From a virus: DNA of 27,409 bases. The stretch lies in the IMG/VR virus record IMGVR_UViG_3300007722_000088, positions 1-27,409 of that record; one strand, 5' to 3'. Positions 468 through 27,409 of the stretch are shown piece by piece; positions within the stretch are counted from its first letter, which is position 1; each line of letters begins with the position of its first letter. The position numbers and the translations under genes are program-made. The notes under the pieces were generated by a model. That model saw only the letters and a list, made by a program, of their open reading frames with translations. It was not told the origin of the DNA and made no database searches.

Positions 468-752
468 TCATTTTCTGACAACTTGACCCGGCTGTGGGCC
501 CTTGTCAGCCGCTTTCTGCTGCTTGGCTTCACCTTCCTTAACTGACACCAGTTTTCTTAGGTAAAATCGACGCATTTGGACAGGAAGTGAGTATACGCCC
601 TCATGTGTGAAACCCCCTTGTCCGTAATAACAGAGATTGAAGAGTTCGTCGTGTAACTGAGACTTATAATTACTCGCTAGGCCAAAAAAAGTCCACACCA
701 AGTGGCAATGCCATCCTCGCGGTGTGGCCGCACGCTGGACATGTGAAATCAA
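468..752 (-). CDS. gp51-like baseplate/tail assembly protein, probably made by frameshift from the gp26-like gene
   Basis: This frame overlaps the last 83 nt of the gp26-like gene in the +1 (equivalently -2) frame. The family-like part lies after the overlap: a helical stretch, then YYGQGGFTHEGVYSLPVQMR and RRFYLRKL, then a polar tail ending at 468. The motif pattern (YYGxGGF, VYxxPVxxRRFY) matches a short protein that follows gp26 in T4-like phages; in T4, gene 51 directly follows gene 26. The only starts in frame are TTG/GTG inside the gp26-like gene: TTG at 752 has no Shine-Dalgarno, while GAGGA precedes a TTG/GTG pair by 12-15 nt. A run of seven U at 684-690 just before the gp26-like stop allows a slip that would fuse the two as ...DFF-GLASNYKS. 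Residues before that run are probably not translated in this frame. Confidence 0.6.
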   Translation of the reverse strand: MISHVQRAATPRGWHCHLVWTFFGLASNYKSQLHDELFNLCYYGQGGFTHEGVYSLPVQMRRFYLRKLVSVKEGEAKQQKAADKGPQPGQVVRK

Positions 753-1500
753 AGTTCATGTCCAAGTCGGGGTTGTTTCCCCTAATATGTGAACGAAGGG
801 ATCGTGAATCCATAGCGGTTAATTCCGTATCAACAAATTTCTTAATCAAGTTACGGTCTTCGTTACCGTCGATAGCAACAATCATGTATTTGAGGCGGGT
901 GGTCATCTCAGGAGAAACACCGTTTGGTGAAATCTTGGAGAGGCTCTTCAGTTCCGTGTCAATGGATTGTTCGTCCCGATGAGTCAATAACTTGTATGAA
1001 ATATTCTTTTTAGACTGTGGAAGTTCGTAGTTAAAACGATTTACTCCCTTTGAAAGTTTTGAAAAGTCAAACTCTTTCGAATGAAGTTCGGAAAGATTAA
1101 CTACAAATTCGCTTTCTTCACCACACTCAGTACACTTAATTTTGGCTGGATATTTATCACCATATGCTAAACGACGAGCAGCAATGAAAATAGCATTCTT
1201 ATCACCAATCAAAATATCATCCAATTTTATTGCTGGGTTGATGATTAAAGCTTTTAGAAGTTCATCCAATACGATACCTTTCTTAATGAGATTCTGACTT
1301 GTCAAAATATCTTCTTCCTTAGCCGTCATGAATTTTAACTCAATGCGACCTGATGATAGCGGAGACTCTGGTGGATAAAAATGTCCTTCAGTCGGAAGGT
1401 CGATGAATTCTGTTGGGTATGTCTGTTTTACAGGGATATCCGATTGTCCCACTTGGACTGGCTGCGGCGCTCTTGCGATTGGTATATTTTGGTTTTCCAT
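670..1500 (-). CDS. 26: Baseplate hub / tail assembly chaperone, T4 gp26-like
   Basis: This is a 276-residue protein of the T4 gp26 (T4_baseplate) type, which acts in baseplate hub or tail assembly. After a proline-rich N-terminus it shows the family core: TEFIDLPTEGHFYPPESPLS (about residues 30-49), then FMTAKEEDIL, LIKKGIVLDELL, and GDKNAIFIAARRLAYG. Two CxxC pairs, C123/C126 (CTECGEE) and C254/C257 (CPACGH), look like one split zinc ribbon. The C-terminus, PLGVDFFWPSE, follows the conserved FFWP ending I associate with this group. The ATG at 1500 is the first in frame and a hairpin terminator lies upstream. The 3' end overlaps the gp51-like frame at a U7 run. Family assignment is firm; the exact role (hub subunit or chaperone) is less so. 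Confidence 0.8.
   Translation of the reverse strand: MENQNIPIARAPQPVQVGQSDIPVKQTYPTEFIDLPTEGHFYPPESPLSSGRIELKFMTAKEEDILTSQNLIKKGIVLDELLKALIINPAIKLDDILIGDKNAIFIAARRLAYGDKYPAKIKCTECGEESEFVVNLSELHSKEFDFSKLSKGVNRFNYELPQSKKNISYKLLTHRDEQSIDTELKSLSKISPNGVSPEMTTRLKYMIVAIDGNEDRNLIKKFVDTELTAMDSRSLRSHIRGNNPDLDMNFDFTCPACGHTARMALPLGVDFFWPSE
684..690 (-). other. Candidate slippery site (U7) between gp26-like and gp51-like frames
   Basis: In the gp26-like frame the mRNA reads GAC UUU UUU UGG and stops six codons after the first UUU. A +1 step, or a -2 slip of Phe-tRNA on the U run, enters the gp51-like frame, which then stays open to 468. The run sits where a frameshift would join two proteins that both look real. 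Confidence 0.5.
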
Positions 1501-1633: not shown

Positions 1634-2602
1634 TTATGTTTTTGAACCTGTTATTTTAATTTCCTTTGAGCCGGGGTCGAATCTCAAAATGAAGCGCTTT
1701 AATCCCTGTACCTTTTCTGGAGTAACCTTTATCATGTTCAAAATTTTTAATACATCGGGAGAAAGTTTAGCATCTATCTTTCCTGTAAATGCCATGACTT
1801 CTTTTTCCAAATATGACTGCAATTGATTTGGCCCGTAGTATGGTAAATCTGGGTCTAACTCTATAACATTGCCCGATGGGTCGATGAATTCAAATGCATA
1901 GACATCATCAACAACCTCCGGCGCCGTATCAGAGGATGCATCAGAAAACGCATCGGCTGGAACTGATGCTTTACCTTTATAATTTAGGCCAGTATTTTTT
2001 ACAGCGGTTGTCCGGTTAGCATTGCCAGCACCAAGGGCGCCCTTGGTGCGATATTCATCAACCGCCTCTTTTACCAAAAACTGCAGGGCCTCTTTGAGAC
2101 TCTTTTTCTTAGGAGCGGTTCCTCCGACGGGACGTTTAGTACCTTCCTTCTTCTCACCAACAGGAACCTTTGGTGTGTCGGACTTCTTCACGACACGCTT
2201 GGTCTCAGTGTTTTTCTTCTTTTCCTTGACCGGCAACTTTGTGCCTTCCTTCTTTTCCTTTGGTTTATCCGTCGAGGTGATTGATTTGGAATCAGATTTC
2301 ATCTTCGTATTAGGAGTTTTCTTGGATGCCACGGTATTGCCGGATAATCCTTTTTTAGCTTCGGTCAGGGTGGTTTCTTCGATTTCTACTTCTTCGAGAA
2401 CCTCGCGTATCATTTGTTTAAGTTCGTTCTTCTTCATAATATTTTCGTGTTGGGTACTTTTTTCCAACTTGTTTAAAGCAATGTCCTCTGCGGATTCTTT
2501 ATCTTGTGAATCCTGATGAGCGCCGACCAAATCCGAAGGGATCTCATTGGAACCGTCTTCTAACATTTCCCGTATCATTTGTTTTAGTTCTGATTTTTTC
2601 AT
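1634..2602 (-). CDS. Leader-bearing virion-type protein with a duplicated N-terminal leader
   Basis: This 322-residue protein has no recognised enzymatic domain. Residues 1-15 (MKKSELKQMIREMLE) and 56-70 (MKKNELKQMIREVLE) are near-copies of one amphipathic helical leader, and neighbouring proteins carry it too. A TLTE|A sequence near residue 80 matches the (L/I)xE|(A/G/S) consensus of the T4 prohead protease gp21. Residues of about 85-175 are very Lys/Pro-rich and repetitive (KKEGTK, PVGEKKEGTKRPVGG). The last 100 residues look globular. The second leader starts with ATG at 2437 preceded by GAAAATATT, so an internal start or an old gene fusion is possible. It is the last gene of an operon with 3-nt and 4-nt spacers upstream and ends before a strong terminator. 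Its role is unknown; internal head protein is an inference. Confidence 0.8.
   Translation of the reverse strand: MKKSELKQMIREMLEDGSNEIPSDLVGAHQDSQDKESAEDIALNKLEKSTQHENIMKKNELKQMIREVLEEVEIEETTLTEAKKGLSGNTVASKKTPNTKMKSDSKSITSTDKPKEKKEGTKLPVKEKKKNTETKRVVKKSDTPKVPVGEKKEGTKRPVGGTAPKKKSLKEALQFLVKEAVDEYRTKGALGAGNANRTTAVKNTGLNYKGKASVPADAFSDASSDTAPEVVDDVYAFEFIDPSGNVIELDPDLPYYGPNQLQSYLEKEVMAFTGKIDAKLSPDVLKILNMIKVTPEKVQGLKRFILRFDPGSKEIKITGSKT
2028..2049. repeat. 22-bp perfect palindrome inside a coding region
   Basis: GCACCAAGGGC is followed immediately by its exact reverse complement GCCCTTGGTGC. It lies in the 322-residue leader protein, coding around KGALGAG. It is unusually GC-rich for the region and could fold as a cruciform or mRNA hairpin. 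Confidence 0.85.
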
Positions 2603-2605
2603 GTA

Positions 2606-3208
2606 TTATACCTTCGATTGTATTCGTTGTAGTTCGGCGTTTTTGCGAGCCAACTCGGTTTCTTTACGACTAATTTGGTTCTGTAGTGGTGTAACGGCTT
2701 TGGCCAATTTACCCTTTAAATTCTGCATGTCGGTTTGAATCTTGTTTTTGTCTCTTTCAAGATTAGCAATTTTTTTCTGATCATTTGGATTCGCCGATTG
2801 AGATGTGCTAAGAGCATCTACCATGGCATCGGCCGGACTCATTGGTTCTCCAATTTCCTCTAAATGCGACTTCTTTAGATAGTTTGGTTTTGCCTCCTCA
2901 ATGTCGTGGATTAAATTGACCATTGAATTGATAATACCGTCCGGCTTTAATTGATAAGCAACGTTCCGCAAATTCCCATTTTTAGCATCTTTAGCTACAA
3001 CTTCTAAATCATTAGCAATTTTCTGTTTCCATTGACTGTATAACATATTACCGTAACCATTTAACTGAATAATTGGATCTGCACTGCGGCGATTCCCTAC
3101 AGGCTTGTCCATGATATATCCATACTTCGATCCAGCTTTATCCATAGCCTCATTTAATCGGTTTCGGATAATGGACTTGACAATCTCCTTTAATTCAGCT
3201 TTTTTCAT
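2606..3208 (-). CDS. Leader-bearing virion-type protein with C-terminal coiled coil
   Basis: This is a 200-residue protein of unknown function. It opens with MKKAELKEIVKSIIRNRLNE followed by Ala, so RLNE|A gives a gp21-like (L/I)xE|A site right at the end of the helical leader. A middle region of mixed composition (about 25-130) is followed by a linker rich in Ser, Gln and Asn. Residues of about 140-200 form a heptad-like coiled coil rich in Lys, Glu, Gln and Leu. It starts 4 nt after the stop of the upstream gene and ends 3 nt before the next start, so the three genes are one operon. The shared leader with both flanking kinds of protein suggests targeting to the same virion compartment; this is inference. 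Confidence 0.8.
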   Translation of the reverse strand: MKKAELKEIVKSIIRNRLNEAMDKAGSKYGYIMDKPVGNRRSADPIIQLNGYGNMLYSQWKQKIANDLEVVAKDAKNGNLRNVAYQLKPDGIINSMVNLIHDIEEAKPNYLKKSHLEEIGEPMSPADAMVDALSTSQSANPNDQKKIANLERDKNKIQTDMQNLKGKLAKAVTPLQNQISRKETELARKNAELQRIQSKV

Positions 3209-3212
3209 GATA

Positions 3213-3662
3213 TTATTCGTCCCATCCGACCGTCATTTCAACCTGTAAAATAAGAGTTTTTTCTCCATTAAGCCGCCCTCGCTTTATAACTTCTGCAAAA
3301 CCAGATGTGTATGGAGACCCAGGTCTAGCTTCCGACCTTAGTCTCTTAGCAATTGTCTCTAACAAACGCTCTTCATAGGTCTCCTCGTCTTCGGTCAAAT
3401 TAGAAATCACCTCAGGATCATCAACGGGTACAGCTAATTTCCATGAATAAATTGTTGTCCCACTCTCTTCTCCCGAATTATCAACTTTGATGGATAGCGG
3501 AACAATGTATTTATCAAATGGAAATCCTAAAATACCCCTCACATCTTGTTCAGTGCCCGCTTTTACAGCTTCAGTAAAGACCTCTTCCACACATTCCATG
3601 ATAATATCACGAATAAAATTGGTTTTGCTATGAACAGCACGTTGGTTTTTTGGGGGATGCAT
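3213..3662 (-). CDS. Hypothetical late protein with leader-like N-terminal helix
   Basis: This 149-residue protein has no recognised family. The region around residues 12-32 (FIRDIIMECVEEVFTE then AV) resembles the leader helix of the two downstream genes, including a final (hydrophobic)TE|A, although it lacks the MKK start. An ATG at 3599, inside this helix, is an alternative start. The body is acidic and strand-rich, with segments such as TIYSWKLAVPVDDPEV and GEKTLILQVEMTVGWDE that suggest a beta fold. A TATAAATA box lies 18 nt upstream of the ATG, making this the probable first gene of the operon that runs to 1634. Confidence 0.75.
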   Translation of the reverse strand: MHPPKNQRAVHSKTNFIRDIIMECVEEVFTEAVKAGTEQDVRGILGFPFDKYIVPLSIKVDNSGEESGTTIYSWKLAVPVDDPEVISNLTEDEETYEERLLETIAKRLRSEARPGSPYTSGFAEVIKRGRLNGEKTLILQVEMTVGWDE

Positions 3663-3680
3663 TAGGTAGGTGAAGTTTTC

Positions 3681-3688
3681 TATAAATA
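3681..3688 (-). promoter_or_regulatory. TATAAATA-type octamer upstream of the gene at 3662
   Basis: The plus strand reads TATAAATA and the gene strand TATTTATA, 18 nt before the ATG at 3662. It is an exact copy of the octamer found before five other minus-strand genes. Confidence 0.45.
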
Positions 3689-3714
3689 TACACCAAACCG
3701 CAGAATCCGCTGAT

Positions 3715-3894
3715 TTAGCGTATCAAGTTTCTCAGAAAGTCAAGATGGTGGACGCCTTCATACTTTGCGACGAAATAACAGAAAGACGCCACCACATGGG
3801 GAGTTTCTTTTTTTAATAACTCTGACATCTTTTGATATTCTTCGTCCCTGAACATCTCAAGGTATTCTTCGCATCTACTGTCTAAATTTTCCAT
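3715..3894 (-). CDS. Small hypothetical protein (59 aa)
   Basis: ATG at 3894 opens a 59-codon frame ending with TAA at 3715. It begins MENLDSRCEEYLEMFRDEEY and ends HHLDFLRNLIR; it is mostly helical and acidic at the N-terminus. The ATG sits one base after the stop of the HNH nuclease gene (TGACATG), the tight spacing of translationally coupled genes, and the frame fills most of the gap before the next gene. No family was recognised. It is too short for many gene callers, but its position and clean helical composition argue that it is real. Confidence 0.6.
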   Translation of the reverse strand: MENLDSRCEEYLEMFRDEEYQKMSELLKKETPHVVASFCYFVAKYEGVHHLDFLRNLIR

Positions 3895-3895
3895 G

Positions 3896-4159
3896 TCACT
3901 TTTTAGTCTTGAAACATGGTAGAAATTCCGGAGGCTTATTTCGTATCCATTTAAGATATTTTTGAAACCGTGGTTGATCTTTTAAAGCCGCGGGTGTATT
4001 ATAGACGTTACTTAACTCATTGTTAGTAAATAAATCGTGGATTGTATTATGACACGGTATACAGATGGTAGTTTTCTCCTTACCACCCTTTGCTCGTGGG
4101 ACAAAGTGGTGATCGTTAGAGTATTCAACATCACGACGGCATAAGGGGCAATTAAACAT
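3896..4159 (-). CDS. HNH endonuclease
   Basis: This 87-residue protein has a compact HNH fold. CPLC (residues 4-7) and CIPCHNTIH (about 33-41) form the zinc-binding knuckles, with DHHFVPRAKGG between them, giving the DHH...CxxCHxxIH order of the HNH family. The catalytic histidine is expected in DHH. Nothing follows the domain except a short tail with QPRFQKYLKWIRNKP. Small HNH proteins like this act as free-standing homing or nicking endonucleases in T4-like phages. It sits between two structural-type genes and is translationally tight with the 59-residue gene downstream. Confidence 0.85.
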   Translation of the reverse strand: MFNCPLCRRDVEYSNDHHFVPRAKGGKEKTTICIPCHNTIHDLFTNNELSNVYNTPAALKDQPRFQKYLKWIRNKPPEFLPCFKTKK

Positions 4160-4205
4160 CCACCAACATTTACAAGACTATTGGTAGTTTGTCAACCACC
4201 AACTT

Positions 4206-5147
4206 TTACATCCATTGACCCGGACGTTGATTTCGCGGAGAATAACTCTTCCCAGCAACATACTTGTCTAACACCAACTCACCAAGCTGGTCCAAAATAG
4301 CCTTATCTGTAACCGGCCGCTCACTCGCGTCAAATGCTCCCACCCTTTCCACCGATTCCGGAACTTCTGCCAAAGTGTCGCGGCCCTGGCCAGAGTAACC
4401 TCTTCGGGCATCAAACTCGTGGTCCACAGAGACTTCGTTCCACCCAAATTCAGCGCTTACAAAATAAATTTGTCCATTCAAAGTTACTTCTTCATCTTCT
4501 ACATCCCATTCCTCATTTGGTGCTTCTTGCATTACACGATTTTTTAAACCAGCGATTTGTCCACCCAATTCTTTCAAACCGTGCATCTGAATAAGCTCAT
4601 CGGCCAAAGCGACGATTTGAGTTAATTTTGCTTGTTGATTGTTGGCTGGACTTATCGTGTTAATGATCCTCTTTATAAGTCTACCAATTTCAACCTCGCG
4701 TTTTTCTTCCGGGTTATTTACATCACCCTCGGCGTGTTCAAATACACCCTCTTCACTATCTGCACAATCCTTATATTGGTATCCTTGTTTTTTCTCCCAC
4801 GAACTTAGTGCGTTTGGGGTTTTGCGGGTAGGACACGGAAATCTAGAAGGATGTGATTGATTGTGTCGATTTATTTTTCTATCAAAATCGTCACGCTCAT
4901 CTTGGTCCGGGTCATGGTCTTCCGAAACGTCTTTGTTTTCCCAAGCTGCCCACATCTCATTTACACGAACATCGCCTTCATTTTTCTTATTGTGAATTGC
5001 CCACATGGTAGAATATGCTTTCGGCGTCTCTCCATAGTGCTTAATAAGTTTATCATGTAGAGATTTTGGAAAATTTGGTGGGGCTGTTTCCGTCATCATC
5101 TCATTAATCGATTCACGGATGAGTTTTTGAATTTCTGTTTTTTTCAT
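4206..5147 (-). CDS. Leader-bearing hypothetical virion-type protein
   Basis: The start is taken at ATG 5147 because the protein then opens with MKKTEIQKLIRESINEMMTE, the same leader seen at 2602, 2437 and 3208; an earlier in-frame start at 5198 would put 17 unlikely residues in front. This gives 313 residues. After the leader comes FPKSLHDKLIKHYG and AYSTMWAIHNKK, a short domain I associate with marine phage hypothetical proteins, then an acidic low-complexity region (DHDPDQDERDDFD). A Cys-containing segment, FPCPTRKTPNALSSWEKKQ, follows, then helical and strand-rich parts. No enzymatic motif was seen. The TATAAATA box 18 nt upstream and terminator-like hairpin at 5200-5232 make it its own late unit. 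Confidence 0.8.
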   Translation of the reverse strand: MKKTEIQKLIRESINEMMTETAPPNFPKSLHDKLIKHYGETPKAYSTMWAIHNKKNEGDVRVNEMWAAWENKDVSEDHDPDQDERDDFDRKINRHNQSHPSRFPCPTRKTPNALSSWEKKQGYQYKDCADSEEGVFEHAEGDVNNPEEKREVEIGRLIKRIINTISPANNQQAKLTQIVALADELIQMHGLKELGGQIAGLKNRVMQEAPNEEWDVEDEEVTLNGQIYFVSAEFGWNEVSVDHEFDARRGYSGQGRDTLAEVPESVERVGAFDASERPVTDKAILDQLGELVLDKYVAGKSYSPRNQRPGQWM

Positions 5148-5244: not shown

Positions 5245-5733
5245 TTAGTATTGGAGTATAGCGTAATCGTACCGCAGAGTGACGTTCATCATAAGTGCGT
5301 CACTTGTTCCCCAATCAAGGTTGTTACCATTGAAAGATTCAACAAATGCACCTTTAAGTGTCCACTCTTCAACTTTATCAAGTGCTGGGCCGAGAACGTT
5401 GATGGTGACATCTTTCTTATAGAAATCAGCGTAACCGTTGCGGCCGGTGACAGATTCATGACTCAAACGAACCCATTCCATAACAGCTTGAGCTGCGGAA
5501 GGAACAACTGGGTCATAGAGGGTAATTTCAATAGGTTGCCATTCAGACTTACCTTTGACGTAACGCTTCAAGTTGATGTGTTCTAATGTAATTGGGTTGT
5601 TGTTGAACGAAGGCCGTCCAGCTGTTTTAATCATGTACGCTGGAATTCCGTCGATGTACATCGTGAAACGATTTTGTACCTTTGGTTCCCAGCTTTGAAA
5701 GAATGCCTCATTTTGGTCTAGTAGTTCTGCCAT
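5245..5733 (-). CDS. 19: Tail tube protein, T4 gp19-like
   Basis: At 162 residues it is almost the length of T4 gp19 (163), the protein whose hexameric rings form the inner tail tube. The sequence has the family pattern: an N-terminal FFQSWEPKVQNRFTMYIDGI, then PAYMIKTAGRPSF, an EHINLKRYVKGKSEWQPIEI strand pair followed by TLYDPVVPSAAQAVMEW, and a C-terminal LKGAFVESFN with LMMNVTLRYDYAILQY. The start ATG at 5733 gives MAELLDQNEAFF with no strong Shine-Dalgarno. A TATAAATA box lies about 46 nt upstream and a terminator just downstream, so it seems to be a single-gene late unit. It is far from the sheath gene (16503-19487), whereas T4 has genes 18 and 19 adjacent. Confidence 0.9.
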   Translation of the reverse strand: MAELLDQNEAFFQSWEPKVQNRFTMYIDGIPAYMIKTAGRPSFNNNPITLEHINLKRYVKGKSEWQPIEITLYDPVVPSAAQAVMEWVRLSHESVTGRNGYADFYKKDVTINVLGPALDKVEEWTLKGAFVESFNGNNLDWGTSDALMMNVTLRYDYAILQY

Positions 5734-10146: not shown

Positions 10147-11133
10147 ATGAATATGAAACCAGTAGAAAAGGATTATACCGTGGGCGTAATTGTGGCGCGT
10201 TTTCAGTGTGCCTCTCTCCACGAAGCACACAAAGAACTGATTGATACAGTTCTTTCTAACCATCCTAAAGTGATGATATTCCTTGGGTTAAGTCCCGTAA
10301 GAGGAAGTATTTACGACCCGCTAGACTTCCAGCCCCGCAAACAAATGATTCTTGAGGCATATCCCCACGATAAATTTCCAAACTTGTCTATTGGCTACGT
10401 CAAAGACAATCGTTCTGATTCCGATTGGTCCACTAAGCTGGATGAAAATATCAGAACGGAAATGGAACCAAATGACACAGTTGTTCTTTATGGCAGCCGA
10501 GATTCATTTTTGACCCACTACACTGGCAAATTCGATGTTCGCGAGTTGCAGTCCACTCGTTACGTCTCAGGCACCGAACTGAGAGCCAAGATTGCTCAGG
10601 CACCTCAGAATAATCCACAATTTCGGGCGGGAGCTATTTGGGCAACGGCCCAGCGATACCCACTGGTTTACTCCACTGTTGATATCCTGGTATTCGACCC
10701 TAAAGAACGTCGAGTTCTTTTGGCCCGTAAGCCCCTCGAAAGCCAGTATCGTTTCGTAGGTGGTTTTGCCGACCCAAAGGATGATTCGTTTGAAGTTTCC
10801 GCTCTTCGTGAACTGTCTGAGGAAACTGGTCTAGCCGTTGGTCTGGTCGGACTCCGTTACGTCGGGAGCAAGAAGGTTGATGACTGGCGCTATGCTAACA
10901 ATCCTTCTGAAAAAATCATGACCCATTTGTACGTTGGAGTTTACTCCATGGGCTGCCCAAAGGCGAATGATGACATTGCTGAGGTTCGTTGGTTTGATTA
11001 TGACAAATTGAACACGACCACTACAAATAGCGAAGGAACCAAATCCGCCGCTGAATTTACATTGGTGGAAGAGCACCGCCCTCTTTGGGTGATGGTTAAA
11101 AATTACATTGATACAAACTTTCCGAAGGCTTGA
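10147..11133 (+). CDS. nadM: Bifunctional NMN adenylyltransferase / Nudix hydrolase
   Basis: This 328-residue protein has two domains. Residues 1-165 are an NMN adenylyltransferase, which makes NAD+ from NMN and ATP: VGVIVARFQ and SLHEAH form the nucleotide-binding (GRFQxxHxGH-like) signature and QSTRYVSGTELRAKI (135-149) is the (I/V)SGTxxR motif. Residues of about 170-325 are a Nudix domain with a box at 205-229, GGFADPKDD... to RELSEETGL, keeping the E222 and E225/E226 catalytic set. The order matches the NadM-Nudix fusions of bacteria and KVP40-like phages, where the Nudix part acts on ADP-ribose or related products. It has a clear Shine-Dalgarno and its own promoter, and is followed by the phosphoribosyltransferase that makes its substrate. 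Confidence 0.9.
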   Translation: MNMKPVEKDYTVGVIVARFQCASLHEAHKELIDTVLSNHPKVMIFLGLSPVRGSIYDPLDFQPRKQMILEAYPHDKFPNLSIGYVKDNRSDSDWSTKLDENIRTEMEPNDTVVLYGSRDSFLTHYTGKFDVRELQSTRYVSGTELRAKIAQAPQNNPQFRAGAIWATAQRYPLVYSTVDILVFDPKERRVLLARKPLESQYRFVGGFADPKDDSFEVSALRELSEETGLAVGLVGLRYVGSKKVDDWRYANNPSEKIMTHLYVGVYSMGCPKANDDIAEVRWFDYDKLNTTTTNSEGTKSAAEFTLVEEHRPLWVMVKNYIDTNFPKA

Positions 11134-11190: not shown

Positions 11191-12630
11191 ATGAACAACA
11201 TAATGACACAGACTGACAGTTACAAGATGGGTGGACACTGGAATATGTACCCCGCAAACACCAATGGAGTGTATTCATACTTTGAATCCCGTAAAGGGGC
11301 AAAGTTTGACAAGACTCCGTTTTTCGGGCTTCAATACATCATCAAGAAATACCTCGTTGGTATCGTGGTAACACGAGCCAAGATTGAGCAGGCAGCAATG
11401 CTGGCCACGGCTCACTTTGGCAACAGCACCTATTTCAATCGCTCCGGTTGGGAATACATTCTCAAAGCGCACGGCGGCAAGCTGCCCCTTCGCATTAGGG
11501 CAGTGCCCGAAGGGATGCCCGTCACCGTGAATAACATTCTCATGTCGGTGGAGAACACCGACCCAAAGACCCCGTGGTTGACCAACTACGTTGAGTCTTT
11601 GCTAACTCACGTGTGGTATTCGTCTACCGTTGCCGCATTGAGTCGGTCCACCAAGGAAATGTTTACTGAATTCCTCAGTCGCACGAGCGATAATCCGGGT
11701 TGCATCAACTTCATGTTGCACGATTTTGGATATCGCGGAGCCACGACCGCCGAAGCCGCTGGTATTGGTGGATGTGCTCACATCACTAACTTTCTTGGGA
11801 CCGATACGCTTCCCGCGTTGGAATTCGCCGCCGAATACTATGGTGGCATCTGGGCCGACCGTGCCGGGGAAGACGTCAACCCTTACAGCGGTCTCGCTTA
11901 CAGTGTAGCCGCTACCGAGCACAGTGTAATGACTGCATTAGGACCAAAGGGAGAGATCGATATTCTTGAAGACCTTTTAAACAAATACCCAACCGGTATT
12001 TTGAGCGTGGTCTCAGACTCATACGACATTTACAACTTTGTTGAAAACTTTGTGTGTAAGCAGTTCAAAGACCGCATCCTTGCCCGTGATGGTGTATTCG
12101 TGGTTCGCCCTGACAGTATTTCGCCAACCCACCCAACACCGGAAGGTGAAACGTTGTGGATTGTCGAGACGTTGGCCAACAACATGGGCTACACCACCAA
12201 TAGCAAGGGCTTCAAGGTTCTCAATCCTAAGACCCGCGTATTGTGGGGCGATGGTATTGATAAGGACGGAATTGAAAAGATTCTCACCACACTTGAGAAG
12301 GCCGGATATTCTTCCGAGAACATGGTCTTCGGTATGGGCGGCGGATTGTTACAGAAGTTGAACCGCGATACTCAGAGTTTTGCATTCAAGTCGAGTGCTC
12401 AGAAGCGTGATGGTAAGTGGCACGACATTTACAAACAGCCTAAGGATTTGTCCAAGGCTTCTAAGCGTGGCAAGTTGAAGTTGTTCAAAGATGGTGATGG
12501 ATTCAAAACAGTGAGCAGCAATGACGTCGGCTACAACAACGAAACCGACATTTTGGAGACGGTCTTTGAAGATGGTGACATCATCAAAGAATACACCTTC
12601 GATGAAGTTAGAAACAATATCAAACTATGA
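11191..12630 (+). CDS. nadV: Nicotinamide phosphoribosyltransferase
   Basis: This 479-residue enzyme is full length for the NAMPT/NadV family and makes NMN from nicotinamide and PRPP. Key features in order: DSYKMGGHWNMYP near the N-terminus, HDFGYRGATTAEAA (177-190), ATEHSVMTALG (241-251, with the phosphorylated-His equivalent at His244), SVVSDSYDIYNF (272-283), VVRPDSISPTHP with Arg306 and Asp308 of the phosphate site, WGDGID, and VFGMGGGLLQKLNRDTQSFA. The start ATG at 11191 has AAGGA eight bases upstream. It follows the NMN adenylyltransferase gene by 57 nt in the same direction, so the two form a nicotinamide-to-NAD+ pathway. Its stop overlaps the next start (ATGA). Confidence 0.95.
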   Translation: MNNIMTQTDSYKMGGHWNMYPANTNGVYSYFESRKGAKFDKTPFFGLQYIIKKYLVGIVVTRAKIEQAAMLATAHFGNSTYFNRSGWEYILKAHGGKLPLRIRAVPEGMPVTVNNILMSVENTDPKTPWLTNYVESLLTHVWYSSTVAALSRSTKEMFTEFLSRTSDNPGCINFMLHDFGYRGATTAEAAGIGGCAHITNFLGTDTLPALEFAAEYYGGIWADRAGEDVNPYSGLAYSVAATEHSVMTALGPKGEIDILEDLLNKYPTGILSVVSDSYDIYNFVENFVCKQFKDRILARDGVFVVRPDSISPTHPTPEGETLWIVETLANNMGYTTNSKGFKVLNPKTRVLWGDGIDKDGIEKILTTLEKAGYSSENMVFGMGGGLLQKLNRDTQSFAFKSSAQKRDGKWHDIYKQPKDLSKASKRGKLKLFKDGDGFKTVSSNDVGYNNETDILETVFEDGDIIKEYTFDEVRNNIKL

Positions 12631-16502: not shown

Positions 16503-19487
16503 TTACGCTGTTGGGAACACAGCACCTGTGGGCAATACGTTGAAATCCAGTACGATGAACTCAGCGGTACGCGATGGTTTCAAGTAGATTTGCCCGTAGA
16601 GGATACCACGGTCAACCATGTCTGGAGTGTTATTAGTATCATCCATTACAACCTTGAAGGCGTATAGACCACTACGTTGTTGAACTGATTCCAAGTAAGG
16701 GTTGACGATACTTAGGAAACGGTTACGTGTTGCCGATACGTTCTGTTCGAATACAAGGAAACGTGAAGACGATGCGATGTATTTCTTGAGAGCAATCATC
16801 AAACGACGAACGCTTACACGGTCGAGAGCCGATGGACTACGTTGAAGTGTTTTTTGACCCCAAGCCACGATACCTTGACCAGGGAAAGCGGCGATTGGGT
16901 TGACCTTACCTTCGTAAAGTCCATCACGCTCAACGTGTGTTAGACGGTCAACAACTTGAACAGCGGCTGGGATGCCACCACGGTTGAGACCAGCTGGTGC
17001 GAACCACTCTGCAGCAACCGCGTCATTGGCAGCGTAAACAGCCATCATAACAACGGAAGGAGGTGAAGCGATAATCTTATTTGTGTTCGTGTCCTTGATT
17101 TTCACCCATGGGTAATAAGTAGCAGCGTAATTCGTATCGAACTCACTTGCCAAATCAACTGCGTTCAACTGTGAGGACTCTCCAGCCAATTGGTTAGGAG
17201 CGATATCAAAGATATAGAACGCATCTCCACGATTTTCACACATTTCAACCGTTAGGTTAACGACGTATGGGTGTTGCTCGTAGTTAACACCTGGTGTGGT
17301 GATAAGATTGAAATCGTATTCATCAGAATTACTTAGAGCAGCAATCGCTTGACGATATCCATAGGTTCCACGAGAAACGTTGGTAGAACAATCAAGTCCT
17401 TGTTGGTTAGTGGAGAGTATGTCATCTCCACTGAGAACAGGAAGAGATGGGCTCTGACCGTCAAAGCCGCCTTGGAAACCAAGAACGAAGCGGCGTTTCT
17501 TAACTGTAGTTGATTCGGTAGAAGCAACGTATAGTGGGGAAACTCCACAATCGTCTTCCAAGTCGAAAGCGTCATTTGAAGCGGCGCTTGCACCTTGTGG
17601 GATTGGAGCGAAGTATTGTTTGTTGTCACGTTCAGGTCCAACGGCGGAGCCAGAAGGATAGAGGGCCAACAGAGTAGCGTCCGCGTCCGAAGGAGCTGGA
17701 TTGAACAATACGCCGGAAGTCCAACGACCAGGTTGTAGTAAATAAGTTGAAGCGGAGCTGTATGCCATCTTCGGAAGAACACCTCGGCGAGCGTATTCTC
17801 CACCTGTTGGTGAAGCGTAAGCAGCGAATCCGAATGGAAGGGAGTCTGTTGGCCAAGGAGCAACGGCTGTTTCAATACGAATCAACTTGCTCTTGTTAGC
17901 ATAACTTCCGAAACTTAGAACCTTACCGTTATAATCGATGTATGAATAAGTGTCACCGATACGACGGGCAACAAAGTCCGAAGAATCTGGATTCAAGTTT
18001 AGGTTATCAAACTTTTCCAAGACGATTGGACGCTTGTCTGTATCCGTGTAAGAACGGAGGATAAGAGAGAACGTGCCGTAATCTGAACCTGGGATTGAAC
18101 CAGCCGACTTTACGTTAGCGATTTCAACCTTATAGGTTGTGTTCATATCAGTTCCGTCACCGGCGGTGTGAACCTTGAACAATTGGTAGTGGTAAGAACC
18201 TGTTCCACCTGTTGAACCTGCCCAATTTGCTACTGCCTGAGATTGAATCCAAGGTGTGTAAGCGTTGGTTAGGTCGTATGTAGAAGTACCGACATCAGGT
18301 GTGATACCGTCAGAGAACGAGAGAGCGTCACGAGTTTGAACTTGAATCTTCCAACTTCCGGAAGCAAGTAACTCAGTCATGACCGTAGCCATCTTGTCGT
18401 CGAATACGTTATAGATGTAAGCAGCTTCAATTTTTGCTCCAGCAGGAACAGCTACATATCCAGCTTGTGGATTATCACCAAATACATTCGAAATGTATGC
18501 GGAACTTTCTCCATCGATGGAGAAATCATATGTTCCATAGCTTGAAGTTACGTTATTATCATCTTTGGTGTTGAGGACCAAACGATATGAGGTTGTCACA
18601 TCGGTTGTAATTGATGGGGTTAACACCGAACCACTGAATCCGTCGAGGTTTTGTCCACGGTCGAGTGCGGTATTAGCCAATACAGCCAATACAACTTCGT
18701 CACTTCCTATGGAAGCAGTCAAGCCGCCACACGCGTCTTCGATAGAAATTCCTATATTAGCTTCCCAGGTGCTTGTATTAAATTTACCATATTCTCCTGT
18801 AATCCATCCTACAACGGAGGCTTCGGTTGCACATGCACTAACAGAGGTTATTTCAACGGAACCGCTGAATGAGATTGCTTTGTTGGCAGCGTGTGGGAGA
18901 TATGATACCGACATTGTTGGTGAACCAACTAAGTTACCAGCGACGAAAGATGAACCTGTGTAGTTAGTAGCACTAATTTGTGCGGCAAAGGTTCCAACTA
19001 CAATTGTCTCTCCGGCGTAAACACCATCAACAAATGTAGCACTTAGTGTTCCGGTGATATCAAATACATCAGCGCCGTTCGATTGGCTAATAACTGTTCC
19101 AATGGACTTGCCTGTGAACGAACTACTTTCAGTAAAGCGGTCTTGTGTTCCAGGGATAGCTGTGACGAATAGAGCAGCACTCTGCGTATAACCGGCAAGA
19201 CCACCAACACGAACAATCGTTACTTCACCTTGTTGACGAATGTATTGTTGAGCGGTATAAGGGCCATATAGTTTGCCGTCGGGATCACCAAAGATACTGG
19301 TGAGGTCAGCTTCACTACGGATTACGGTTGGGGTGAAACCAGGTCCTTTTGGGAAAGGAGCGACGACTACGCCGCCAATCTGCTCAATTCCTTGAGCGAG
19401 ATATGATGAATCAATCTCCTTTGTGAAAACGCCTGGTGAAACGATGCGTTCGGATGGGCTATATTTGCCGTTTTGTTCTAATGCCAT
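16503..19487 (-). CDS. 18: Tail sheath protein, T4 gp18-like, unusually long
   Basis: The product is the contractile sheath subunit. The N-terminus (SERIVSPGVFTKEIDSSYLA, then GIEQIGGVVVAPFPKGPGFT, then LYGPYTAQQYI and VTIVRVGGLAGY) and the C-terminal domain (GLYEGKVNPIAAFPGQGIVA, WGQKTLQRSPSALDRVSVRR, LDFNVLPTGAVFPTA) are clearly gp18-type. At 994 residues it is about 335 longer than T4 gp18 (659). The extra length is mostly between about residues 100 and 500, rich in Ser, Thr, Gly and Ala with beta-like segments, and probably forms one or more surface domains. The start ATG 19487 has GGAG 11-14 bases upstream. It has its own TATAAATA box, a terminator upstream and one downstream, so it is a single-gene unit. 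Confidence 0.95.
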   Translation of the reverse strand: MALEQNGKYSPSERIVSPGVFTKEIDSSYLAQGIEQIGGVVVAPFPKGPGFTPTVIRSEADLTSIFGDPDGKLYGPYTAQQYIRQQGEVTIVRVGGLAGYTQSAALFVTAIPGTQDRFTESSSFTGKSIGTVISQSNGADVFDITGTLSATFVDGVYAGETIVVGTFAAQISATNYTGSSFVAGNLVGSPTMSVSYLPHAANKAISFSGSVEITSVSACATEASVVGWITGEYGKFNTSTWEANIGISIEDACGGLTASIGSDEVVLAVLANTALDRGQNLDGFSGSVLTPSITTDVTTSYRLVLNTKDDNNVTSSYGTYDFSIDGESSAYISNVFGDNPQAGYVAVPAGAKIEAAYIYNVFDDKMATVMTELLASGSWKIQVQTRDALSFSDGITPDVGTSTYDLTNAYTPWIQSQAVANWAGSTGGTGSYHYQLFKVHTAGDGTDMNTTYKVEIANVKSAGSIPGSDYGTFSLILRSYTDTDKRPIVLEKFDNLNLNPDSSDFVARRIGDTYSYIDYNGKVLSFGSYANKSKLIRIETAVAPWPTDSLPFGFAAYASPTGGEYARRGVLPKMAYSSASTYLLQPGRWTSGVLFNPAPSDADATLLALYPSGSAVGPERDNKQYFAPIPQGASAASNDAFDLEDDCGVSPLYVASTESTTVKKRRFVLGFQGGFDGQSPSLPVLSGDDILSTNQQGLDCSTNVSRGTYGYRQAIAALSNSDEYDFNLITTPGVNYEQHPYVVNLTVEMCENRGDAFYIFDIAPNQLAGESSQLNAVDLASEFDTNYAATYYPWVKIKDTNTNKIIASPPSVVMMAVYAANDAVAAEWFAPAGLNRGGIPAAVQVVDRLTHVERDGLYEGKVNPIAAFPGQGIVAWGQKTLQRSPSALDRVSVRRLMIALKKYIASSSRFLVFEQNVSATRNRFLSIVNPYLESVQQRSGLYAFKVVMDDTNNTPDMVDRGILYGQIYLKPSRTAEFIVLDFNVLPTGAVFPTA

Positions 19488-26437: not shown

Positions 26438-27409
26438 TTATTTAATAAGTTGCTTTTTAACTTCGTTCAGTTCTACGCGAAGTTCTTTAATAGCTTCAAC
26501 CAATAATGGAATGACCTTTTCATAATGGATTGTTTTATATTTCGCTGGGTCGATTGGTGCTGGAACTACCACTTGAGGGAGTACCGCTTCAACTTCTTGA
26601 GCCGATAAGCCAACTTCAAGTTGTTTTTTGTAACCGAGTTTTTGAGCTATTTCGTTTGGTTCGTAATAGAATCCATTCAGAGCATCAACTTTATCCAAGG
26701 CGAATTTTATGTTGCCCTTGCGAGTTTTTAAAGCATTGTCTGAAAAATTGGCGGTGATAGTACCAGTGGCGGTCAGCGCACCAGCGATGGCAATCGTCGC
26801 TCCATTGTCCGTTATAATACTGTTCCCAAGGGTTGTAGCAGCTGTGTATTTTGGAATATAGGTTGTGGTGCCAGATATAGAACCTATACCTTGGATTCCC
26901 TGTATGCCTTGGATTCCCTGCGAACCAGTTGTTCCTTGGGTACCGGTAGTTCCTTGACGACCTTGTATACCTTGGATGCCTTGGGTACCAGTTGTTCCTT
27001 GGGTACCAGTTGTTCCTTGGGTACCGGTAGTTCCTTGACGACCTTGTATACCTTGGATGCCTTGGGTACCAGTTGTTCCTTGGGTACCAGTTGTTCCTTG
27101 GGTGCCAGTTGTTCCCTGGGTGCCAGTTGTTCCTTGTATTCCCTGTATGCCTTGGATTCCCTGGGTACCAGTTGTTCCTTGGGTACCAGTTATACCCTGG
27201 GTGCCAGTTGTTCCCTGGGTGCCAGTTGTTCCTTGTATTCCCTGTATGCCCTGGATTCCCTGGGTACCAGTTGTTCCTTGGGTACCAGTTGTTCCTTGTA
27301 TACCCTGGCTACCTGTTGTGCCTTGGGCGCCGGTAGTTCCTTGGATTCCTTGAATACCCTGAGTTCCAACAGTACCTTGGGTTCCTGTTGTTCCCTGTGA
27401 ACCAGTCAC
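26438..27409 (-). CDS. Collagen-like tail fibre with C-terminal S74 intramolecular chaperone (N-terminus beyond window)
   Basis: At least 323 residues lie in the window. The frame is open to the edge (a GTG at 27409 is the first codon seen), so the real start is probably outside. About 175 residues are uninterrupted G-x-y triplets, mostly GTT, GTQ, GIQ and GRQ, expected to form a collagen-like triple helix. A short beta part follows (TTYIPKYTAATTLGNSIITD). The last 110 residues are an S74-type chaperone: NFSDNALKTRKGNIKFALDK, LEVGLSAQEVEAVLPQVV and YEKVIPLLVEAIKELRVELN. This domain trimerises fibres and usually cleaves itself off at the Ser before Asp (FSD). The fibre would serve in host attachment; Thr-rich triplets are possible glycosylation sites. 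Confidence 0.85.
   Translation of the reverse strand: MTGSQGTTGTQGTVGTQGIQGIQGTTGAQGTTGSQGIQGTTGTQGTTGTQGIQGIQGIQGTTGTQGTTGTQGITGTQGTTGTQGIQGIQGIQGTTGTQGTTGTQGTTGTQGTTGTQGIQGIQGRQGTTGTQGTTGTQGTTGTQGIQGIQGRQGTTGTQGTTGSQGIQGIQGIQGIGSISGTTTYIPKYTAATTLGNSIITDNGATIAIAGALTATGTITANFSDNALKTRKGNIKFALDKVDALNGFYYEPNEIAQKLGYKKQLEVGLSAQEVEAVLPQVVVPAPIDPAKYKTIHYEKVIPLLVEAIKELRVELNEVKKQLIK
26890..27409. repeat. Nested 9-bp and 18-bp tandem repeats coding for collagen-like G-x-y triplets
   Basis: Short units such as TTGGGTACCAGTTGTTCC are arrayed in larger blocks. Some blocks of 80 bp or more are nearly identical copies (e.g. 26935-27010 and 27010-27085). The array extends to the window edge and is likely to vary in length between relatives. 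Confidence 0.85.

Follow-up and report, generated by a model that had tools for sequence, protein, structure and literature searches.

The DNA analyzed here (hereafter the window) is a stretch of 27,409 nucleotides, positions 1 to 27,409 of IMG/VR virus record IMGVR_UViG_3300007722_000088. On its minus strand lie the genes of four proteins, A to D, that carry a common leader, usually of about 20 residues, whose end resembles the cut site of the prohead protease gp21 of phage T4. We found this leader, with its cut-site-like end, on unrelated cargo proteins in many other viruses, where it is often encoded in the proximity of gp21, gp22, and gp23, and we found the protease gene in the relatives that bear capsid genes. 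The four genes and their leaders are as follows (window coordinates; a slash marks the predicted cut position).

4206..5147, minus strand: protein A, 313 aa, with a leader, an xPPxFP...AYATMW helical domain, and an acidic tail
5088..5147, minus strand: leader of protein A, 20 residues, MKKTEIQKLIRESINEMMTE/T
3213..3662, minus strand: protein D, 149 aa, with a diverged leader
3570..3629, minus strand: diverged leader of D, residues 12-31, SKTNFIRDIIMECVEEVFTE/A
2606..3208, minus strand: protein B, 200 aa, with a leader and a coiled-coil-like C terminus
3149..3208, minus strand: leader of protein B, MKKAELKEIVKSIIRNRLNE/AMDK
1634..2602, minus strand: protein C, 322 aa, with two leader copies ahead of a basic, Lys-rich region (pI approximately 10.4) and then a C-terminal domain
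2555..2602, minus strand: first leader copy of C, MKKSELKQMIREMLED
2360..2437, minus strand: second, internal leader copy of C, residues 56-81, MKKNELKQMIREVLEEVEIEETTLTE/AKKGLSG

In the translations, the residues after the cut position of A are TAPP, and since its leader ends in MMTE/T, the strict (L/I)xE form of the motif is relaxed there. Protein D starts with an 11-residue extension, MHPPKNQRAVH, followed by SKTNFIRDIIMECVEEVFTE/AVKA, and protein C, translated from 2602, begins MKKSELKQMIREMLEDGSNE. The leader of B and the internal copy of C end in strict (L/I)xE, and those of A (MTE) and D (FTE) end in relaxed forms. The initial annotation of this DNA had listed RLNE/A, TLTE/A, or VFTE/A as leader ends; ends of this type exist, but TLTE/A closes the internal copy of C and not the leader at 2602. 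Neither Pfam nor PHROGs gave a function for A, B, C, or D, and a strong ribosome-binding site was found at none of the leader-gene starts.

The context of the window was taken from a sister contig, G001 (IMGVR_UViG_3300027983_000011; 69,937 bp), which is 99.98% identical to window positions 1-27203. When the N termini of 80 G001 genes were compared, B-C, A-C, and A-B ranked 1, 2, and 3 among 3,160 pairs, with scores of 49, 45, and 39 for these three MKK leaders and 29 for the best pair not made up of two of them, which bears out the earlier claim that the proteins starting at 5147, 3208, and 2602 open with a common leader. The helix that had been called related in the protein at 3662 (D) is a diverged copy lying 11 residues in, and in register it scores 34 against the internal copy of C and 32 against leader A, both above 29. 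The two leader copies within C use different codons at 7 of 13 identical residues; because identical residues often differ in codon, the likeness of the leaders has been maintained at the protein level and is not a fresh DNA duplication. The leader is strongly amphipathic, with a moment of 0.44 compared to 0.26 in control segments. An AlphaFold model of A, of low confidence overall, has a leader helix at residues 3-16 and a loop at residues 17-27 that contains the motif; its only confident helices are at 28-75 (the confident part being about residues 21-70), and comparison of the model with the PDB gave no significant match.

To find the leader elsewhere, we used a degenerate DNA pattern encoding M(K/N)KxE(L/F)...(I/V)..E..(I/V), which matched at least 120 stretches in IMG/VR, compared to 0 for one control pattern with rearranged codons. 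In 257 Gb of bacterial and archaeal genomes, the pattern occurred in 8 stretches, and only two had the full look of the leader (one metagenome bin). The fetched loci (the final 0.7-2.9 kb of contigs G003, G012, and G022 not included) contained 196 leader proteins that form 139 unrelated cargo clusters, 124 of them singletons, so the parts downstream of the leader are unrelated, as the initial annotation had noted. A Pfam match was found in at most 4 of the 85 leader proteins scanned, one of them to the GP88 family. Multiple leader genes can occur in one genome: the head cluster of G002 has six and that of G012 five, and G007 has a tight group of four at 54-57 kb. The leader is a recurrent, widespread virus module. 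Protein D had no relatives among the fetched loci apart from the sister contig. Searches of 50,697 phage records by tblastn gave no match for A, B, or C, tblastn of a relative of A and of a gp21-adjacent leader protein returned chance matches only, and a search for two leaders in tandem found no match.

We also found that the leader ends sharply. Its positions 1-14 are partly set by the search pattern, and from position 15 onward they are free; conservation collapses past residue 20-21, residue 20 still carrying 1.4 bits of information and residue 22 just 0.1. The motif [LIVMF]xE, with its Glu at residues 15-24, is present in 126 of the 139 cluster representatives (113 for strict [LI]xE), compared to 65.3±5.5 when each sequence was shuffled internally and 83.5±4.0 (maximum 99 of 1,000) when shuffling kept column composition. 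Since the observed count exceeds that of the column-composition shuffles, the hydrophobic residue and the Glu shift together as the length of the leader varies. No enrichment of LxD or ExL was found at the leader ends of the same representatives. The residue after the motif is Ala in 26 of 126 cases (21%, with a background of 6%), followed in frequency by Gly, Ser, and Asn. In family A, the relatives of protein A, [LIM]xE stands two residues ahead of PPxFP in 22/22 distinct relatives listed, and it is kept in L354 (TLAE/VAPP), L357 (KINE/STPP), and L359 (DMDE/SAPP) despite unrelated sequence directly upstream. In family C, the motif precedes KGLSG after linkers of variable length, with the exception of L203, which is without KGLSG. 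In these two families, the motif may belong to the cargo domain instead of being a cut site.

The relatives of C align to its second leader copy, and this copy is internal in some of them as well. It often stands behind an unrelated N-terminal part (window 1634-2602; L011 13125-14513; L022 11608-12663; L401 3003-3986, in G027), as if two genes had been fused, and internal initiation may occur at the second leader of C. Leader-like helices (KEIKEMIRKIVREEV and KIKEIVREIIREIITEKY) were also seen at about residues 55-75 of two head-cluster proteins of G002, which suggests that the tag is not confined to the N terminus. The genes of these proteins are the following.

G002 250753-251193 (L245 10753-11193), minus strand: protein with internal leader-like helix
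G002 253737-254228 (L245 13737-14228), minus strand: protein with internal leader-like helix

In T4, the protein Alt is cleaved at both ends (PMC9026906).

A gp21-family protease (Peptidase_S77) and Gp23 are encoded by 7 of the 7 leader contigs longer than 93 kb that were tested. Among all 24 leader contigs tested, the protease was found in 13 and gp23 in 14, and the contigs that lack them are shorter and possibly fragmentary. Both genes are also present in close relatives of the window. For an enrichment test, we used the eleven contigs that contain both protease and gp23 (nine fetched via the leader and two via the tail tube); leader genes made up 15 of 139 genes inside the interval from portal to major capsid protein, compared to 21 of 1,437 outside it (odds ratio, 8.2; P = 8e-8), and as G002 and G012 contribute 11 of the 15, the test leans on two genomes. 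Among the 120 loci listed from the leader pattern alone, 51 loci had markers of the head, 23 had markers of the tail, and 12 had markers of replication. In addition, [LIVMF]xE ending at residues 8-26 occurs in 66% of head-cluster proteins of at least 100 aa, compared to 37% elsewhere, which is near the 34-35% seen in internal sequence windows there.

In G012 and in the cultured Flavobacterium phage immuto, a small protein between portal and protease, the position of T4 gp67/gp68, has an MKKS-type leader; the leader proteins of immuto are gp072 and gp080. We sought a virion proteome for immuto in the literature; the Baltic Flavobacterium paper (PMC7077304) has none and is without mention of immuto. 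The gp23 of the relatives contains LLENQAKQLxxE/(A/V/S/T), with the Glu at 58-63, which matches FENQ...FLTE/A (Glu 65) in T4, and the gp22 of several relatives starts LL(K/R/T)E/A. A close relative of the window, G026 (297 kb), encodes at its far end portal, a leader-like variant gene (MTKSQLKQLIRETINDYE...), gp21, gp22, and gp23, and its major capsid protein has LLENQAKQLIDE/A (LIDE/A) at the position of the T4 gp23 cleavage site.

The internal proteins of T4 have propeptides of 10-20 residues (PMC5694885), and gp21 cleaves after L/I-x-E (PMC9026906). The capsid targeting sequence (CTS) of T4 IPI, IPII, and IPIII was reported by Mullaney and Black in 1996, according to PMC9026906 and PMC3012670; for packaging, the first ten residues of IPIII are enough (PMC9026906, PMC5694885), and among T-even phages the internal proteins vary while the CTS alone is conserved (PMC3012670). 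The T4 N termini that we used as controls (IPI, MKTFKEFTSTTTPVSTITE/A; IPII/III, MKTYQEFIAE/A; gp24, MAKINELLRE/S) have the same layout as the leader. Like the T4 CTS, the leader is short and N-terminal, starts with MK, is common to unrelated proteins, ends in (L/I)xE/A, and belongs to phages with a gp21-family protease, and its cargo is highly diverse and encoded by dispersed genes. In contrast to the T4 CTS, its sequence is MKKSELKxIIKEEIxxxLNE, it is an amphipathic helix, usually of about 20 residues, on far more cargo types, many of its genes lie within the head cluster, and it is sometimes duplicated or internal and known here from sequence. The propeptides of the giant phages phiKZ and SPN3US are likewise removed by a prohead protease and are thought to target inner-head or ejection proteins, but several of them are more than 100 residues long, and the sites cited for them follow an A-x-E pattern (PMC5694885), while the leader is short and common to many unrelated cargos. 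The propeptides of T4 gp24, gp23, and gp22, which are cut by gp21, share the cut motif with the leader, but they belong to shell or scaffold proteins and are not a portable tag. We found no description of this leader in the open-access literature; its sequence is new, and the kind of system it appears to represent, a CTS, is already known from T4.

Taken together, we consider it fairly likely that the leader is a capsid-targeting propeptide removed by a gp21-like protease; it would work like the T4 CTS by analogy, and we do not claim descent from that sequence. Late in infection, the amphipathic helix of the leader would dock the protein on the growing prohead core, and after formation of the head shell the protease would cleave behind hydrophobic-x-Glu, so that the leader is lost. 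The mature cargo would remain in the head with the DNA and would then probably be ejected into the next host. The initial annotation had proposed a targeting tag that sends varied cargo to the prohead or to another virion compartment. The prohead is the best-supported destination because of the register-independent LxE end, the enrichment of Ala, Gly, and Ser after it, the sharp drop in conservation, the portal-to-capsid enrichment, the Peptidase_S77 gene in capsid-bearing relatives, and the matching T4 layout, and from this evidence of layout and context we infer cleavage and packaging.

Several observations weigh against a prohead destination. By inspection of the T4 N termini, the leader has only MK and a terminal IxE in common with them; the first leader copy of C is without a clear LxE; mature A and D are acidic (the strongly basic region of C would fit a DNA-associated head protein); and in G003, G007, and G020 every MKK-type leader is outside the head interval. 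In the window and its relatives, moreover, the leader genes lie not in a head cluster but between tail tube and baseplate/tape-measure genes, the neighbors in the window being the following.

5245..5733, minus strand: tail tube protein (T4 gp19 family), upstream neighbor
670..1500, minus strand: T4_baseplate protein (PF12322, gp26/gp51-like), downstream neighbor

The T4_baseplate gene is followed by a gene for a long coiled-coil protein (898 aa in G001), which we take for the tape measure. The order tube-A-B, often with C, is kept in relatives, including G026, and a tail tube gene is present in 44 of 55 family-A loci. Our doubt stems mainly from this proximity of A, B, and C to the tube gene, which keeps alive the idea that the leader is a helix that docks at the tail, whether in the tube lumen, on the tape measure, or at the baseplate hub, and is left uncleaved by the prohead protease. 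Cargo of contractile injection systems carries N-terminal signals, to which such a helix would be comparable, and adjacency to tube genes holds for A, B, and C; elsewhere, however, leader genes are enriched at head genes, specifically in the portal-gp21-gp22-gp23 interval of other phages. As the leader is also found on the gp67/68-position protein, its end fits the prohead protease motif, and in T4 gp19 directly adjoins gp20 and the prohead core genes, we regard tail docking as unlikely. Because the window contig has no head genes and its leader genes stand beside the tail tube gene, another virion compartment is still a candidate destination; the 70-kb sister contig does not include head genes either, so for the phage of the window itself we infer the gp21-family protease.

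Another explanation, which we think quite improbable, is that the leader serves assembly or interaction in general, as a helix that binds, for example, one scaffold, chaperone, or host factor; it would have been spread by modular gene shuffling, and its LxE would be just the helix end. Its strong amphipathicity and its presence on dispersed orphan genes, such as those of G007, would be expected of such a helix, but the LxE end is retained at varying helix lengths beyond column composition, with LxD and ExL unenriched, and is retained ahead of cargo domains that have unrelated sequence upstream. Lys/Glu-rich amphipathic helices are common in AT-rich phage proteins, but a chance likeness of such N termini is highly improbable, being refuted by the rearranged-pattern and cellular-genome controls.

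Other features of the window were noted. Short N termini ending in hydrophobic-x-Glu are present on enzyme-like proteins (window 15605-15027 and 14309-13767; G001 21104-20484), namely a HAD-type nucleotidase (MSILLRNIINE/), a NUDIX protein (MLLKNLLRE/), and MTMKLKSILSE/T, with a HAD form in G026 too (MHILLKNILKE/A); these may be packaged enzymes. Window 10147-11133 encodes a nucleotidylyltransferase-NUDIX fusion and 11191-12630 a nicotinamide phosphoribosyltransferase-like protein, which, with the sequences judged by eye, suggests phage-encoded NAD salvage. The tail sheath protein at 16503-19487 has 994 aa, compared to 659 aa for T4 gp18, and its sheath family match is mainly to the C-terminal third. 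At 26438-27409, collagen-like GTQGTTGTQG repeats are followed by an intramolecular-chaperone-like region (tail fiber), and the sister contig ends within the repeats.

We tentatively suggest that in many uncultured T4-like phages one portable, protease-removable leader could serve as a general code for loading virion cargo, by which well over 100 mostly orphan protein families, including the products of tail-adjacent genes and, in some phages, two-leader polyprotein-like copies, would be delivered into hosts with the DNA. If the leader is a capsid-targeting propeptide, a simple sequence rule would predict which uncharacterized phage proteins travel in the head and enter the host as infection begins, the stage at which anti-defense and takeover proteins act. 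Of the 85 leader proteins scanned, at least 81 are without a Pfam match, so the leader would offer a way to discover a hidden set of injected proteins. It would also be a candidate tag with which cargo could be loaded into the heads of phages besides T4.

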